Origin: a bacterium
GTDB lineage: Bacteria > JAHJDO01
Direction: 5' to 3'
Length of the DNA stretch: 40,798 nucleotides
NCBI GenBank assembly: GCA_018812485.1
Contig: JAHJDO010000071.1
Coordinates: forward strand, 1 to 40,798
The number at the start of each line of letters is the position of its first letter. Position 1 is the first letter of the stretch. The notes beneath the pieces were generated by a model. That model searched no databases. It was not told the origin of the DNA and saw only the letters and a program-made list of their open reading frames with translations. Both the position numbers and the translations under genes were made by a program. This document shows positions 25,915-32,650 of this stretch, piece after piece.

Positions 25915-27018
25915 GTGATATTCGGGATTATATTGTTAACTGTTGTTCTTATATGGCATGTTTCCTATACGAATTTGCACAAGAGGCTGACAGACTTGCG
26001 TCGCGAGCATGAAAAATTGGAGCTGCTTTTAATGGATAGCCGCAGGCAGTCATACATCTTGAATGTTATAAAGCAAGCTATAGATGTATTTGGAGAGGAG
26101 CAAAATTTAGAACAAGTATTAAGAAGAATAGTAGATGCTGTAGCTAAGATATTACAGGTAGATGTAATTATTCTACAACTATATAGTGATGAACAACAAG
26201 ATTTCTTTATGCGGGTTATAAAAGGAAGAAAAGAATTGACTCTTGGAGAGCAGATAAAAGAAGATGTAATAAATAAGGGGCAGTCACATCTGATAAATGA
26301 TTTATCATCTTTTCCCAAATATAAGTTTTTGAGTGATCAGGGCATAAAGTCTTTGATTGTTGCGCCTTTGCGAAGGAGAAAAAAAGTTATAGGATTAATA
26401 GGAGGATTAGCAGATAAGCCGCGTGATTTTACAGGGGAAGAGCTGGATCTTCTAACAACTGTTGCAAGCCAGGCAGGGTTATTAGCAGAAAATGCTCAGC
26501 TATTAGAAAAAACAAAGTTGCTTTCAATTACAGATGGATTAACTAATTTATATAATCATCGCCATTTTCAGGAGAAACTAATGGTTGAAGTAAAGAGAGC
26601 AAAAGAGGAGAAGAAGCCTCTTTCACTTATAATGGGAGATGTTGATGACTTTAAGCATTATAATGATACTAATGGTCATCCTGCCGGTGATGAAGTGCTG
26701 CGACAGATTGGAAGGATATTAAAAAATAATACTAAAAGAGGGGATATTGTTGCCCGTTATGGCGGGGAAGAGTTTGTTATAATCCTTCCGGATACCTCAG
26801 GAAAGAGCGCTAAAATTGTAGCAGAAAAGTTGAGAAAATCTGTTCAAGAATATAAGTTTGTTAACGAAGAAAGTCAGCCAGGCGGTAAAGTTACAATAAC
26901 TTTTGGACTTGCAGATTATCCTGAAGACGCAGATTCAGCAAGAGGGGTTATGAAGAAAGCAGATAATGCTCTATATATGGGCAAAGAGTCCGGTAAAAAT
27001 CAGGTTGTTGTTGCCTAA
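25915..27018 (+). CDS. Membrane-anchored GAF-GGDEF diguanylate cyclase
   Basis: 367 aa, predicted to make cyclic di-GMP from two GTP. An N-terminal TM helix (~residues 2-17) and a short coiled region precede a GAF domain (~60-195). The GGDEF domain (~205-365) has DGLTNLYNHRHF, the metal Asp in GDVDDFK (D242) and an intact GGEEF at 283-287. The inhibitory I-site RxxD is not kept (KRGD at the equivalent position), so product inhibition may be weak. The GTG start at 25915 lacks a strong ribosome-binding site. It converges on lptG with only 3 bp between stops. Confidence 0.92.
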   Translation: MIFGIILLTVVLIWHVSYTNLHKRLTDLRREHEKLELLLMDSRRQSYILNVIKQAIDVFGEEQNLEQVLRRIVDAVAKILQVDVIILQLYSDEQQDFFMRVIKGRKELTLGEQIKEDVINKGQSHLINDLSSFPKYKFLSDQGIKSLIVAPLRRRKKVIGLIGGLADKPRDFTGEELDLLTTVASQAGLLAENAQLLEKTKLLSITDGLTNLYNHRHFQEKLMVEVKRAKEEKKPLSLIMGDVDDFKHYNDTNGHPAGDEVLRQIGRILKNNTKRGDIVARYGGEEFVIILPDTSGKSAKIVAEKLRKSVQEYKFVNEESQPGGKVTITFGLADYPEDADSARGVMKKADNALYMGKESGKNQVVVA

Positions 27019-27021
27019 AAC

Positions 27022-28107
27022 TTATTTTCTTGCCTTAATTAGTATTCCCAGGTGAAGAAGTGCAAAAATAATATTAGCCAGCCAGGCCGCAAGCCATGGA
27101 TTAAGAGCTCCATCTCTTCCAATCGCTAATATAATAGGAATTGCTATACCATAATAGATAAATCCAATACTCAGAGCAATTCCAATGCTTTCCTTTTTCC
27201 CCTTTTTGCCCATAACTAGCATTATAGAAAAAGCGATAATTATCATTACAAGATTTGAGAATGGAAGCGATATTCTTGAATGCAGCTCTGTCAATTCCCT
27301 ATATGGGTAGCATTTAATTTTTATTAAACTTTTAATGCGGCGTTTTAGAAGCTTTATGTCTAGATGCGGTAATTCAGCTTGTTTAATCAAAAGATCACGA
27401 GGTGTTTCTGTAATGTCAGATTCTAATTGTTCAAAATTTTCGGTTTTAATAATAGAGCCTTCCACATCAAATACACGGACTAGTCCATCAAAAAGTATCC
27501 ATTTTTTATCTATCCATTTTGTCTCTTTAGCATTGATTGTATTTTTAATATTATAATTTTTATCATACTGAGTTATTTTAATATTATTCATATATTTATC
27601 TTTAGCATTAAAAAGACCCACGTGGACAATTCTGTTTTTTACATCTAAAAATGCGAAATCAGTCCATACTTTCTTTTTAAGTTGGTATTGTTTGCCAATA
27701 TTAACTTTCCATATATAGCGCGCTTTTGACATTGATTTAGGAGCGATATTCATACTTACAGGTATAGATGCTAAACTTATAATTGCAGAAACCAACAAAA
27801 ATGGCATTAGAATTTTTGTAGAGCTTACTCCACTAGCCCACAATGCTGTTAGCTCATTATATTTATTAAGATAGTTTAAGGTTATTATTATGCCTATAAG
27901 AGTTGAGATGGGCATAATTTTTATATATATATCTGGCAACAGGTTTCTGTAATAGCTTACAATATCGGTGAATTTTGCGCCTTCTGATACAAATTCGTTT
28001 GTATTGCTTATCAGATCTATTATCAGATAGAGACATATAAATGCTGTTAGGCAGTAGAATAATGAACACAAAAAACTTTTTATAAGATAGCGATCTATAA
28101 CCTTCAT
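27022..28107 (-). CDS. lptG: LptF/LptG family LPS-export permease (LptG-like)
   Basis: 361 aa inner-membrane permease of the YjgP/YjgQ family, which with LptB extracts lipopolysaccharide for transport to the outer membrane. TM helices lie near the N-terminus (~10-32, ~60-80, ~97-118) and a C-terminal cluster (~280-355), with a beta-jellyroll periplasmic domain between them; KYNELTALWASGVS is the family coupling motif. It is last in the mla-lpt operon, 10 bp after lptF. Which copy is F or G is assigned only by order. lptB is not in the window. Confidence 0.88.
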   Translation of the reverse strand: MKVIDRYLIKSFLCSLFYCLTAFICLYLIIDLISNTNEFVSEGAKFTDIVSYYRNLLPDIYIKIMPISTLIGIIITLNYLNKYNELTALWASGVSSTKILMPFLLVSAIISLASIPVSMNIAPKSMSKARYIWKVNIGKQYQLKKKVWTDFAFLDVKNRIVHVGLFNAKDKYMNNIKITQYDKNYNIKNTINAKETKWIDKKWILFDGLVRVFDVEGSIIKTENFEQLESDITETPRDLLIKQAELPHLDIKLLKRRIKSLIKIKCYPYRELTELHSRISLPFSNLVMIIIAFSIMLVMGKKGKKESIGIALSIGFIYYGIAIPIILAIGRDGALNPWLAAWLANIIFALLHLGILIKARK

Positions 28108-28117
28108 TTATAAAATT

Positions 28118-29206
28118 CTAACATAGATAGCGTGTTTTATGAATTAAGTATATACCTGTTGTTCCAATTATAATATTTGGTAGCCACATTGCTACAGCAG
28201 GTGGCATGTAGCCTTTTTGCGCTATTATTGATCCTGATATCATTAATAAGTAGTGAAGAAGAATAACAGGCATACCTATTCCTATAGCTGCAAATTTGCT
28301 GCTGCGATGATATCTAATACTCAAGGAAATGCCGATTAGGATAAATGGAATAAATGAAAAAGAAAGAGAAGCTTTTCTGTATAATTCCACATATAATTTA
28401 TTTGTATTAGCCTTTGCATTTATAATTTTGTTTTTCAAATCACTAGAAGTCATTTCAATAGTGCTCTTTTCTAACTTAATCGTATCATAAGCAATAGATC
28501 CAAAATCTATAGGGTAAATCTTAAAAGAGCCTTTGAAATATTCGTTTGGATTTTTGGGGTTGAACTCTTCAGTAAACACATCCTCTAATTTGAGTACTAG
28601 ACTTTGGTCTTTTGGATTAGATATAAAACGTCCTTGTTTTGCAGTTATTGTTCTTACAGAAAAGTCTGCTTTTAACTGGTGAATTATAACATTGTATAGA
28701 ATATTATTTCTAATTTTATCCGCATAAAAAGTATATCCTTTGAATATCTTCATCGGCTTTTTTTCTTCCAGAAGAGCTGAGGGATTCAAAATGCCGATTT
28801 CTTTGAAGAATTTTTTTGAAGAGAAGTTTGCCTTAGGAGCAATTGTATTATTTAACGGCAAAGAAACTATGCACAATATTATACCAACAGCAAGGATTGG
28901 AGGCATGATTATTCTGTAAGGATTTATCCCATTTGCCTTCATGGCAGTTATTTCATTGTCAGAAGAGAGCCTGCCAATAGAGGTAAGAGTAGCCACCAGT
29001 ATTGCCATTGGTAAGGTGTAGGTCAGGATAAAAGGGAGAAGATATACAACTAGTTTTAATATGCTAAGCACACTAATTCGCTCTTTAACCAGCATATTTG
29101 CCAGTCTAAACATGTTTCCCAGAAATAGAATAAATGTAAAGACACACAGGCTTGAGAAGAAAGGGTCTATAAATTCTCTTAGAATATAGCGGGTTAATAT
29201 TCGCAT
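28118..29206 (-). CDS. lptF: LptF/LptG family LPS-export permease (LptF-like)
   Basis: 362 aa, same family as the next gene. N-terminal TMs are followed by LSSDNEITAMKANGINPYRI, the characteristic cytoplasmic coupling motif, then a periplasmic beta domain (~130-270) and three C-terminal TMs. It is located 17 bp after the MCE-domain gene, so outer-membrane LPS export and phospholipid trafficking are encoded in one transcription unit. It implies a diderm envelope. Confidence 0.88.
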   Translation of the reverse strand: MRILTRYILREFIDPFFSSLCVFTFILFLGNMFRLANMLVKERISVLSILKLVVYLLPFILTYTLPMAILVATLTSIGRLSSDNEITAMKANGINPYRIIMPPILAVGIILCIVSLPLNNTIAPKANFSSKKFFKEIGILNPSALLEEKKPMKIFKGYTFYADKIRNNILYNVIIHQLKADFSVRTITAKQGRFISNPKDQSLVLKLEDVFTEEFNPKNPNEYFKGSFKIYPIDFGSIAYDTIKLEKSTIEMTSSDLKNKIINAKANTNKLYVELYRKASLSFSFIPFILIGISLSIRYHRSSKFAAIGIGMPVILLHYLLMISGSIIAQKGYMPPAVAMWLPNIIIGTTGIYLIHKTRYLC

Positions 29207-29223: not shown

Positions 29224-30480
29224 TTATCTTGCTGCGCCCATTAAGCCAACAAGGTATTTAAGATCCTGGTCATTATATTCTATTTTTATACCTGCTATAA
29301 ATGAAGGTCTGTCCAAAATATCTTCTGCTCCAGCAACTATATAGTAGCTTTTATCTTCCCATATTTTATAGCTCAGACTTGTTCTAAGAAAGAATGGAGA
29401 GCTGTAAACAGCACTGTGCCCTTCAATTGTGATACTGGTTTTTTTATCGGGAAGTATATAGTCAGCTCCCAGCCCTGCGCCTGAGTTTATCAGACCACCC
29501 CTGACTGTTAAATTATTGTCAAAGAATTTTAATGCAAGCTGCACATCATATTCAATTTCGCGTCTCTCATCTTTTGAATTACTTGTGCCCAGCTTGCTTG
29601 CTCCTACAAGATAATATTTATCATCAGCAGTTTCAATTCTTATATAACCTTTATTTCTACAAGCTCTCTCTCTAGCAGAATATACACTTTCGCCTCCTAA
29701 CCAAGTTTTTATTTCTCTCATTTTGCCCAGTATATCTTTTGCGTCTTCAGAGGCAGCTTTTGCTGATTTAATAGTTTTTCTAGCGTCATTATACAACTCC
29801 TCGTCATAAATTAGTTTCCCAACAGTGCCTTCTCCTTTATCAATTTTTTTTACAATTTCCTTAATTGTTTTAACTGTCTCTTTTGCTTCTGTCCCAATTC
29901 CCTCAAATTCATCAATAATTTTTTGCGCTTTATCAGATGTTTCTTTTGCAGACTTCATAAACTCAGCAGTATTCTTATAAAGTTCTTCGTCAGTTAAGAG
30001 TTTTCCTGCTGTTCCCTCTCCCTTTTCAATTTTCTCCACAAGTTTCCCAATACTATCTGATATTTCCCCTGCTTTAGTAAAGAGCTGATCCAGTTGATAG
30101 GAATCTCTACCATCAACAATACTCCCGGGCTTTAGAACAGAGCTATCTGTAGTTCCCATTGTAATGCCAACATATTTGCCTCCCATGAGACTTACATCGT
30201 TAATGCTGAATATAGAGTTTTGCCTGAGTATTGTTTCTTTTTTTATCCACAAAGAAACCTGTATTTTATTATCTTTTATATCAAAGCCTTCAACACGTCC
30301 TACCTTCATTCCAGCCAGTGTTACCGTATCTCCTCCTTTGAGCCCGCCTATCTGGCTAAAGTTAGCTTTTATTATATATCCATTTTCAAACAATCTGATT
30401 TTCCCTATCCAAAAGGTTAGAGCCATAAGCAGTACGATGCCTACAAAAAATGCTATACCGACCTTCTTTTCAATATTCAA
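29224..30480 (-). CDS. mlaD: MlaD-like MCE protein with beta-rich C-terminal domain
   Basis: 418 aa periplasmic substrate-binding subunit anchored by a TM helix (~7-27). The MCE domain (~33-110) includes GLKGGDTVTLAGMKVGRV and SLMGGKYVGI. A helical stretch (~130-260) contains two copies of a KGEGTxGKLxxDEELY unit (152-168, 214-230). Residues ~275-418 alternate polar and hydrophobic in short predicted strands, as in an outer-membrane barrel or lipocalin-like domain, unlike the short E. coli MlaD. It is separated from pilZ-mlaF by a repeat-containing 94-bp spacer and has a GGAGG ribosome-binding site. Confidence 0.9.
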   Translation of the reverse strand: MNIEKKVGIAFFVGIVLLMALTFWIGKIRLFENGYIIKANFSQIGGLKGGDTVTLAGMKVGRVEGFDIKDNKIQVSLWIKKETILRQNSIFSINDVSLMGGKYVGITMGTTDSSVLKPGSIVDGRDSYQLDQLFTKAGEISDSIGKLVEKIEKGEGTAGKLLTDEELYKNTAEFMKSAKETSDKAQKIIDEFEGIGTEAKETVKTIKEIVKKIDKGEGTVGKLIYDEELYNDARKTIKSAKAASEDAKDILGKMREIKTWLGGESVYSARERACRNKGYIRIETADDKYYLVGASKLGTSNSKDERREIEYDVQLALKFFDNNLTVRGGLINSGAGLGADYILPDKKTSITIEGHSAVYSSPFFLRTSLSYKIWEDKSYYIVAGAEDILDRPSFIAGIKIEYNDQDLKYLVGLMGAAR

Positions 30481-30574: not shown

Positions 30575-31708
30575 TTAAGTTATGGGACCCACATTACTTC
30601 CTGTAACAAACTGTTTGACAATGAGATTGTCCGTATTTTTAATTTCCTGAACAGTTCCCACCTGAATAATTATGCCATTATATAACATTGCTATTCGATC
30701 TGCAATCTGATATGTGCTAACCATGTCATGAGTTATTACTATTGATGTGGTATTTAGTGTATTCTCAAGCTCTAAAATAAGTTTATTGATAGAAGCTGAT
30801 CTGACTGGATCAAGTCCCGTTGTAGGTTCATCGTAGAGTATAATTTCTGGATCCATACTAATTGCCCTTGCAAGCCCAACTCTCTTTCTCATGCCTCCAC
30901 TCAAATCAGCAGGTTTTAATTTTTGAGAACCATCCAATCCAACTATCTCAAGCTTGTTTTTGACTATTTTATCCATCTCTTCTTCGCTCAGGTTCGTGTG
31001 CTCTTGCAATCCCAGTTTTATGTTTTCTTCAACAGTAAGAGAAGCAAGTAATGCAGCAGATTGAAAAAGCATACCGAATTTTCTTCTAATCTTATCAAGT
31101 TCATTATCCGAAATTTTCGCAATATCAACCCCGTCCACCTCTACTATACCGGAATCGGGTTTTATAAGGCCAATTATATGTCTTAAAAGCACGGTCTTGC
31201 CGCATCCGCTACATCCAATAATAACAATTGTTTCTCCGCGCCTAATTTTAAGATTAACGCCATTTAATATTTTTTTACCTCCAAAACTTTTGTGTAAATC
31301 AGTAATATTAATTATTATTTCTTTAGTTTTTACAAATTCAATAATTCTTTGCTTTGCGTTTTTCTCTATTTGCGTAAATTCAAGACCTGTTTCATAGTAT
31401 TTTTCCCCATTTGAAATCACTATTGCTCTCTGCCATTTCACAACACAACTTGCAGATATTTCTTCTTTACTGCTATCAGGAAGAGAGAACCTTGAATACA
31501 TCAGAGAATTAATTTTCATCTGTTTTTTAGTCTTAAAACAGATGCCTCCACCGCTTATATCTTTGGCTTTTCTTTCTTCCTGCTGTGAAAAGGCTGTATG
31601 TTCAGGAGGCTCAGTGCCTATTAATACATCTACTTCAATTGGCAAACGAGAATATCTTCTGCGTTCATGAAAACTAATTTTTTCATCCAGCTTATCTATT
31701 TCTATCAT
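30575..31708 (-). CDS. mlaF: PilZ-MlaF fusion: c-di-GMP-binding lipid-transport ATPase
   Basis: 377 aa. Residues ~13-128 form a PilZ domain with both ligand motifs present: RxxxR (R17-R21, in HERRRYSR) and DxSxxG (D50-G55). Residues ~130-365 are a MlaF-type ABC ATPase: Walker A GCSGCGKT (165-172), Q-loop LFQSAAL, signature LSGGM (269-273), Walker B LYDEPTTGLD and H-loop H327. E. coli MlaF has no PilZ domain. Flanked by mlaE (4 bp) and mlaD, it is the motor of the phospholipid transporter. Inference: c-di-GMP binding modulates ATPase activity or assembly. Confidence 0.93.
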   Translation of the reverse strand: MIEIDKLDEKISFHERRRYSRLPIEVDVLIGTEPPEHTAFSQQEERKAKDISGGGICFKTKKQMKINSLMYSRFSLPDSSKEEISASCVVKWQRAIVISNGEKYYETGLEFTQIEKNAKQRIIEFVKTKEIIINITDLHKSFGGKKILNGVNLKIRRGETIVIIGCSGCGKTVLLRHIIGLIKPDSGIVEVDGVDIAKISDNELDKIRRKFGMLFQSAALLASLTVEENIKLGLQEHTNLSEEEMDKIVKNKLEIVGLDGSQKLKPADLSGGMRKRVGLARAISMDPEIILYDEPTTGLDPVRSASINKLILELENTLNTTSIVITHDMVSTYQIADRIAMLYNGIIIQVGTVQEIKNTDNLIVKQFVTGSNVGPIT

Positions 31709-31712
31709 TTTA

Positions 31713-32483
31713 TTAACTCTTTTGAAAAAACATTCTGGTTAAGAAGTAATCAGAAATTATAATCAATAGAAATGAGATAACAACAGAGGCAGTAGTTGAT
31801 TTACCAACGCCTTCAGCTCCGCCTCTGGTTCTAAATCCCTGATGACAGGATATTATTGAAACAACTATGCCAAAGACAAATGCCTTTACTAATCCGCTAT
31901 ATATGTCTCTTAATGTTAAGAAGTTTTTAATGCTGTCTAAATATGTACTGGTGTCTACGCCTATCTGGAATCTAGATACAATAAATCCTCCTGCCATGCC
32001 TACGCAATCTGAGTATACAACCAGAATTGGAAGCATAATTATACATGCCAGAAATCTTGGCATTACCAGGTATCTGATAGGGTTTATTGCTAATGTTTTA
32101 AGCGCATCTATCTCCTCAGATACCTGCATTGTTCCAAGTTCTGCTGTCATTGATGCGCCAACTCTTCCTGCAACTATGAGTCCAGTAAGAACGGGGCCCA
32201 TCTCCCTGCACATAGATGCTGATACTATTGATCCTATCAGGTGCTGGATATGATACTTTGAAAGTTCAGTTCCTGTCTGGAGTGCGAGCACCATTCCTGT
32301 GAAAATCGACATTAAGGATGTGATAGGAAGTGTATAAACGCCTATTTCCAGCATTTGCTTTGCAATAGGTTTTAGATTTTTAAATGCTGATTTACACCAA
32401 TATACAGTTTTTGTTAGTAGTATTAAGACTTCCCCTGTATAATCCAGAGCATCTGTAATTTTGCTATATATACTTGGTTTCAC
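31713..32483 (-). CDS. mlaE: MlaE-family lipid ABC permease (GTG start)
   Basis: 256 aa inner-membrane permease. It shows an amphipathic N-terminal helix and about five TM segments. The conserved block REMGPVLTGLIVAGRVGASMTAELGTM lies near residues 100-125, with EIDALKTLAINPIRYLVMPR after it. The GTG start at 32483 has AAGGA 6 nt upstream. Only 11 nt separate it from the 3' end of tRNA-Arg, so tRNA maturation could create the mRNA 5' end. Confidence 0.94.
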   Translation of the reverse strand: MKPSIYSKITDALDYTGEVLILLTKTVYWCKSAFKNLKPIAKQMLEIGVYTLPITSLMSIFTGMVLALQTGTELSKYHIQHLIGSIVSASMCREMGPVLTGLIVAGRVGASMTAELGTMQVSEEIDALKTLAINPIRYLVMPRFLACIIMLPILVVYSDCVGMAGGFIVSRFQIGVDTSTYLDSIKNFLTLRDIYSGLVKAFVFGIVVSIISCHQGFRTRGGAEGVGKSTTASVVISFLLIIISDYFLTRMFFQKS

Positions 32484-32494
32484 TTTTTCCTTAG

Positions 32495-32568
32495 TACGCC
32501 TGGCCCGATTCGAACGGGCGACCTTCAGATTCGAAGTCTGCCGCTCTATCCAGCTGAGCTACAGGCGC
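32495..32568 (-). tRNA. tRNA-Arg (anticodon TCG)
   Basis: Cloverleaf on the minus strand: acceptor GCGCCTG/CAGGCGT with discriminator A, D-arm GCTCAGCTGGATAGAGC, anticodon loop CTTCGAA (TCG), T-arm GCCCG TTCGAAT CGGGC. CCA is not encoded. It reads CGA codons and is followed at once by mlaE. Confidence 0.95.
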
Positions 32569-32572
32569 AGGT

Positions 32573-32650
32573 TGGGGTGAGTGACGGGAGTCGAACCCGC
32601 GACTTCCAGAACCACAATCTGGCGCTCTAACCAACTGAGCTACACCCACC
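32573..32650 (-). tRNA. tRNA-His (anticodon GTG)
   Basis: Minus-strand cloverleaf: acceptor GTGGGTG/CACTCAC, an extra 5' G (position -1) opposite discriminator C73 as expected for His, D-arm GCTCAGTTGGTTAGAGC, anticodon stem-loop CCAGA TTGTGGT TCTGG, T-arm CGGG TTCGACT CCCG. A CCA appears to be encoded, unlike in the neighbouring tRNA-Arg 4 bp downstream. Confidence 0.95.

Follow-up and report, generated by a model that had tools for sequence, protein, structure and literature searches.

Why should the ATPase of a transporter that moves phospholipids between membranes carry a domain of the kind that senses a second messenger? This question is raised by one gene in a stretch of bacterial DNA of 40,798 nucleotides (contig JAHJDO010000071.1 of GenBank assembly GCA_018812485.1; the whole stretch is hereafter called the window), in which a PilZ domain is fused to an ATPase of the Mla type. 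Cyclic di-GMP (c-di-GMP) is the messenger by which bacteria are set to a motile or a sessile way of life. A first-pass annotation of the window had proposed that this messenger gates phospholipid traffic directly through the fused domain. If so, phospholipid traffic would join the outputs of c-di-GMP, and PilZ would join the sensors carried by ABC ATPases; in addition, the covalent fusion offers a direct, testable handle on post-translational control of Mla-type lipid transport. The explanation that we favour for the locus, and to which we assign a probability of roughly 0.6, is that c-di-GMP directly controls a lipid transporter of the minimal MlaEFD kind.

The fusion gene and its two domains

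The gene lies at 30575..31708 on the minus strand, where it forms a single frame of 377 codons with an ATG start, encoding 377 aa; the coordinates, strand, and frame had been given correctly in the first-pass annotation. The N-terminal PilZ domain claimed there (residues 15-126; 31331..31666, minus strand, as are all features of the gene) is borne out by Pfam PF07238, which aligns over profile positions 1-100 of 102 with an E value of 1.5e-10 and a score of 41.7 bits, well over its gathering score (22.5 bits). A scan of the window genome itself placed the domain identically, residues 1-130 alone score 44.7 bits, and the predicted fold (below) agrees. The Pfam and fold matches of the PilZ part are far beyond chance. 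Both motifs for c-di-GMP contact can be read from the sequence as had been claimed: RxxxR from R17 to R21 (31646..31660) and DxSxxG, with D50, S52, and G55, from D50 to G55 (31544..31561). A very short linker, residues 127-131 (31316..31330), separates the Pfam PilZ match, which ends at residue 126, from the MlaF alignment, which begins at residue 131-132.

The remainder of the protein, residues 132-377 (30578..31315), is an MlaF-type ABC ATPase by its Pfam, NCBIfam, and PDB sequence matches. ABC_tran of Pfam covers residues 148-297 (E 1.6e-33), and the ATPase is intact, as had been stated: it retains Walker A, GCSGCGKT, from G165 to T172 (residues 165-172; 31193..31216), Q216, the ABC signature LSGGM at residues 269-273 (30890..30904), Walker B at residues 289-294 with D293/E294 (30827..30844), and H327. 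The best PDB sequence matches of this half are 8fed, 7d06, and 6z5u, which we take to be Mce/Mla complexes, and 7ch8 and 6xbd, both labelled MlaF, match at E 1.5e-56 and 3.6e-50; the alignment with the Mla/Mce ATPases of the PDB runs from residue 131-132 to the end of the protein. In NCBIfam the best model is the MlaF equivalog NF008809, at 213.4 bits and thus below its curated cut-off of 441, which argues for an Mla-type ATPase that is not the E. coli-like equivalog. An M in place of Q in LSGGM is described for Mla/TGD-like MCE ATPases in the report of the MlaFB structure (PMC7367683). The matches obtained with PADLOC look like generic ATPase matches.

Conservation and selection

The comparison set consisted of the window genome and four species of its genus, none of the other genomes available for comparison being closer than domain level. 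The full-length fusion is present in 5/5 species, is 84-90% identical to the window protein, and contains no in-frame stop; consequently, an accident of frame or assembly, or an assembly join, was dropped as an explanation. The PilZ-MlaF fusion is a real, conserved, genus-level domain architecture.

Loss of the RxxxR and DxSxxG residues in close relatives, which the first-pass annotation had set against its own proposal, is not seen: R17, R21, D50, S52, and G55 are invariant in all five species. However, since 65 of the 115 positions of the PilZ part are invariant among the five sequences (50 are variable), any five given positions would be conserved by chance at about 6%, and the invariance of the motifs alone is weak evidence. 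Among the species the PilZ part is 69-89% identical and the ATPase part 87-93%. The ratio dN/dS (Nei-Gojobori, 10 pairs) ranges over 0.16-0.63 in PilZ and over 0.07-0.20 in the ATPase, and it lies below 1 in 10/10 pairs for both. Thus, both domains are under purifying selection, with PilZ less constrained than the ATPase. In 8 of the 10 pairs the PilZ part also has a lower dS than the ATPase part, perhaps because of recombination or small-sample noise.

A probable minimal Mla transporter

The gene order mlaE-mlaF-mlaD, which the first-pass annotation had suggested should be looked for, is found at 5/5 loci, with mlaE directly upstream of the fusion gene and mlaD directly downstream. In the window the mlaE permease gene (31713..32483, minus strand; PF02405, 1e-83; TIGR00056 over cut-off) is separated from the fusion gene by 4 bases. 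In each of the five genomes a single MlaE match exceeds the cut-off; G003 has an extra one, at 19.9 bits, that stays under the cut-off and lies inside lptF. The mlaD gene (29224..30480, minus strand; PF02470, 1.1e-15) encodes an elongated protein of 418 aa, with an MCE domain at residues 33-109 followed by a long C-terminal part, for which we infer, by analogy and by eye, a putative C-terminal beta-barrel. MlaC and MlaA were each found in 0/5 genomes, whose completeness is 62-96%, by searches whose controls were positive in E. coli and Caulobacter. The fusion gene is also the sole MlaF-like ATPase seen in the genus among the matches listed: no second MlaF is among those for the five genomes, and the next ABC match listed in any of them has an E value of 1.1e-35 (G002). 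For comparison, the best match listed reaches 1e-50 or lower in 39/54 other genomes.

With its elongated MlaD, and with neither MlaA nor MlaC found, the transporter resembles, by these sequence matches, the minimal MlaE-MlaF-MlaD type. Such a minimal MlaEFD, with an elongated MlaD, has been described in Veillonella parvula and proposed as ancestral (PMC10665443). As in that system, mlaE, mlaF, and mlaD lie together, MlaA and MlaC were not found, and MlaD is elongated; unlike in that system, genes for LptF and LptG follow in the window, and the C-terminal outer-membrane beta-barrel that goes with this type of MlaD is putative in the window protein. The main text of the Veillonella paper has 0 occurrences each of "PilZ" and "c-di-GMP".

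The gene for the LptF-like permease (28118..29206, minus strand; PF03739, 2.4e-76) follows and adjoins mlaD in 5/5 loci. That for the LptG-like permease (27022..28107, minus strand; PF03739, 5.6e-69) is present in 4/5 loci: it lies directly after lptF in G000, G001, and G002 and about 4 kb away in G003, and there is none in the stretch of G004 read at the locus. In G003 the interval between lptF and lptG (L074:3071-6868) holds a fused protein of 1061 aa that by eye is restriction-methyltransferase-like, together with a gene of 179 aa. Beyond lptG and convergent with it in the window is a gene for a GAF-GGDEF diguanylate cyclase with a GGEEF motif (25915..27018, plus strand; PF00990, 2e-48). 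This gene adjoins lptG, and is convergent to the operon, in 4/5 loci (G000-G003, the G001 copy being cut by the contig end); the contig of the G004 locus also has a GGDEF match, about 13 kb past lptF. Overall, the five genus genomes have 2-7 GGDEF matches each.

Directly upstream of mlaE and on its strand are genes for tRNA-Arg(tcg) and tRNA-His(gtg) (32494-32649); since tRNA-Arg ends 10 bases before the mlaE start, the tRNAs and mlaE may share a transcript. A scan for promoters and terminators did no better than with shuffled sequences (promoter-like, 24 vs 26.9 expected; terminator-like, 1 vs 3.7).

Predicted fold of the PilZ half

The first-pass annotation had called for a fold prediction of residues 1-130 and its comparison with PilZ structures, including complexes with c-di-GMP. 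The AlphaFold2 model of these residues, made from four sequences, has a mean pLDDT of 62 and a pTM of 0.54, with residues 51-120 at about 64-82 by block. The pLDDT is below 50 for residues 1-23, which hold RxxxR, and for residues 37-45, and the candidate binding site is consequently without a confident model. With Foldseek, the best PDB matches are PilZ proteins, namely MotI/DgrA (E 1.4e-4) and MrkH (E 2.8e-4). With VIA-align 2, the best match is again MotI/DgrA (Z 11.5, 103 residues aligned, rmsd 2.9), and 4xrn, a PilZ protein with c-di-GMP, has a Z of 10.1, MrkH 10.1, and Alg44 with c-di-GMP 9.5. By title or recall, 27 of the first 28 VIA-align 2 rows are PilZ-containing chains; the exception is 4qxz, a hypothetical protein. 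The comparison thus came out as proposed, and the isolated domain is predicted with modest confidence, given the mean pLDDT of 62, to fold as PilZ. The fold-match rows also include the PilZ-like XC1028, which has "trivial c-di-GMP binding activity"; weak binders thus exist.

A PDB sequence search with the PilZ part as a single sequence gave no match, and one with its profile gave just three unrelated rows (E 0.16-0.5). The AlphaFold2 model of the full-length protein from four sequences (mean pLDDT 35) yielded no usable placement of PilZ on the ATPase.

Distribution and origin of the fusion

It had also been asked whether the architecture recurs across genomes and always within mlaE-mlaF-mlaD operons. 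Within the genus the order is mlaE-fusion-mlaD in 5/5 loci; outside the genus, no PilZ-MlaF was found among the matches listed. Among the matches listed for 59 genomes, only those of the five genus members align across the PilZ part without stops, and those outside the genus begin at query residue 103 or later, with the exception of one (G026:C5) that has 11 stops inside. No alignment to the PilZ part was obtained for the long frames that precede MlaF in some other genomes (e.g., L019, L033, and L042). A profile search with residues 1-165 covered 385 genomes, 5 of them genus members; among the matches listed, a stop-free match from the PilZ part through residue 165 occurs in the five genus genomes and in G123 only. 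This last protein is a divergent fusion, and its detection near the bottom of the list demonstrates the reach of the search. In 132 genomes of further phyla no PilZ-MlaF was found (8 matches listed, none beyond residue 131), nor was one found in another 24 genomes (one match) or in a large phylum represented by 395 genomes; a match at E <= 1e-6 is present in 66 of these and starts in every case at residue 104 or later. A scan of contigs with very specific patterns returned 30 loci, of which 3 are the genus species and 27 match the ATPase part only, from residue 106 on. PilZ was confirmed in 0/46 stretches from viral contigs. In a tblastn search of plasmids, 5000 records were counted, and >=80% of the query is covered in 119 of them; the two records examined, whose matches seemed to span the PilZ part, were both rejected, one because it runs through stop codons and the other because it starts upstream of the annotated MetN start. 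PilZ-MlaF is therefore known from one genus, within a survey that is a sample and not proof of absence.

The G123 protein (G123:C108:51623-52876; L108:6624-7877) has an N-terminal PilZ domain with an ABC ATPase close behind and, by eye, both c-di-GMP motifs. It shares these features with the window fusion and differs in its partner, a gene for an ABC-2-type permease, not Mla, lying directly downstream. PilZ-ABC fusions are present in 3/7 genomes of its phylum (G123, also L136 and L139; the permease neighbour was checked in G123). The PilZ domains of the G123 and window fusions are 28% identical. The G123-type fusion is independent of PilZ-MlaF, and its presence in another phylum suggests that PilZ-ABC fusions arose at least twice. 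Two other candidates were rejected, one in the phylum of G013, in which PilZ is joined to a PilT-like ATPase and not to an ABC ATPase, and one (L148) with no ABC motif by eye. At L143:1411-2922 (genome G487), PilZ precedes a secretion ATPase that is PilT-like (Pfam T2SSE).

The window genome contains at least 14 PilZ domains (13 in one genome scan, including the fusion, and one more in contig C91). By Pfam, PilZ is fused there to PTS EIIA (L001), to FHA (L110 and L111), and to a flavodoxin-like domain (L112); in L002 it accompanies, by eye, a protein-kinase-like sequence. Outside the MlaF orthologs, the top PilZ among the matches listed is an FHA-PilZ protein of this same genome (52.7 bits, 30% identity), and the PilZ domain of the fusion may, on this similarity, derive by shuffling from PilZ domains already present in the lineage.

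How might c-di-GMP act on the transporter?

A model for direct control can be stated as follows. The PilZ domain would have been gained at the N terminus of the ATPase and would serve there as an integral sensor of c-di-GMP. The nucleotide would be held by the RxxxR segment, flexible and N-terminal, on one side and by the barrel edge with DxSxxG on the other, and would thereby clamp the RxxxR segment onto the barrel. This clamping would move PilZ relative to the ATPase domain via the linker of about 5 residues; the shift, in turn, would alter closure of the ATPase dimer or coupling to MlaE and so change ATP turnover, and lipid flow would then follow c-di-GMP. The individual parts of this proposal differ in strength. 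The PilZ domain quite probably binds c-di-GMP, and the odds are somewhat in favour of c-di-GMP controlling the ATPase as well. We would give even odds to the fuller picture, in which c-di-GMP binds directly to the ATPase of a minimal, perhaps envelope-spanning transporter and gates phospholipid flow between the membranes, so that the lipid composition of the outer membrane would be set post-translationally, as a direct output of the messenger.

Counted in favour of direct control are the near-complete match to the PilZ profile, the fold, the kept motifs, dN/dS below 1 in both domains, the gene order, the single MlaF seen, and the presence of c-di-GMP enzymes, together with, by analogy, the independent PilZ-ABC fusion elsewhere and the precedent of OpuA. 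Counted against it are the faster evolution of the PilZ half, the poorly modelled motif segments, the existence of PilZ-like proteins that bind weakly, and the restriction to a single genus.

In OpuA, transport is deactivated when c-di-AMP binds to CBS domains of the ATPase subunit (PMC10710835). Like the window protein, OpuA thus has a cyclic-dinucleotide sensor-type domain inside an ABC ATPase subunit; the two differ in the domain (CBS vs PilZ), the nucleotide, and the transporter family. The CBS position in OpuA is C-terminal, as opposed to the N-terminal PilZ of the window protein. Because binding deactivates OpuA, we lean slightly, on this analogy, toward c-di-GMP acting as a brake on the pump.

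The main rival, which we regard as unlikely, is that PilZ is a scaffold and not a sensor, having replaced MlaB and the C-terminal extension of MlaF in stabilising the dimer and holding it on MlaE, with c-di-GMP unimportant. E. coli MlaFEDB is similar to the window system in its LSGGM ATPase, its MlaE and MlaD partners, and the presence of a regulatory domain on the ATPase; in E. coli, however, that domain is a protein of its own, the STAS protein MlaB, whereas in the window it is a covalent N-terminal PilZ (PMC7367683). According to the same report, E. coli MlaF requires MlaB and is stabilised by its own C-terminal extension. The window protein ends earlier (its residue 376 of 377 aligns to chain residue 252 of 269 in 6xbd), so that most of this extension is absent, and a scan of five operon proteins revealed no STAS domain. 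Given this dependence of E. coli MlaF on parts largely missing here, PilZ may also stabilise. However, unfused MlaF-like proteins in several other genomes likewise end early (244-257 aa from the match start) and lack PilZ, indicating that a short C-terminus does not call for PilZ, and a role without c-di-GMP is at odds with the intact state of both motifs in 5/5 species.

Somewhat less probable is a switch in docking or localisation, in which PilZ binds c-di-GMP and recruits a partner, or tethers the transporter to a signalling complex, with no allostery of the ATPase. PilZ proteins often work via protein partners, e.g., MapZ-CheR1, and the genome encodes FHA-PilZ proteins, the PilZ protein that by eye is kinase-like, and diguanylate cyclases; however, a linker of only about five residues favours mechanical coupling, and the operon indicates no partner. 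Finally, a recent and nearly neutral fusion of little function would suit a lineage that freely shuffles PilZ onto several unrelated proteins and the higher dN/dS of the PilZ half, but it is highly improbable given dN/dS below 1 in every pair, no stop or loss in five species, and the kept motifs.

Relation to known c-di-GMP outputs

The PilZ fold is shared with BcsA, YcgR, MrkH, and MotI, whose output parts are of the synthase, flagellar-brake, and DNA-binding kinds. None of these outputs is a lipid-transport ATPase, unlike that of the window protein. In BcsA, a flexible linker carries RxxxR, and DxSxxG sits on the barrel (PMC12564702); the phrase "ABC transporter" is absent from this same source, a 2025 review of c-di-GMP effectors. 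The statement in the first-pass annotation that no c-di-GMP control of Mla had been described agrees with the open-licence PMC literature, in which no direct control was found and in which, by title and abstract start, nothing relevant joins PilZ with MlaF. A connection between c-di-GMP and Mla is nevertheless not fully new, because a bvgR mutant of Bordetella bronchiseptica is reported to have a "maintenance of lipid asymmetry" cluster with raised transcripts, along with c-di-GMP genes (PMC11537037), a link that is transcriptional and not direct control. For E. coli, the control of the level of active MlaB is called an open question in the report of the MlaFB structure (PMC7367683). What is new here, then, is PilZ on an Mla ATPase; a sensor domain fused to an ABC ATPase is of a known kind.

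A minor observation concerns the convergent GAF-GGDEF protein (25915-27018). RxxD is the inhibitory-site motif of GGDEF proteins, and in this protein, by eye, K stands in place of R at the RxxD position; product inhibition may therefore be weak.
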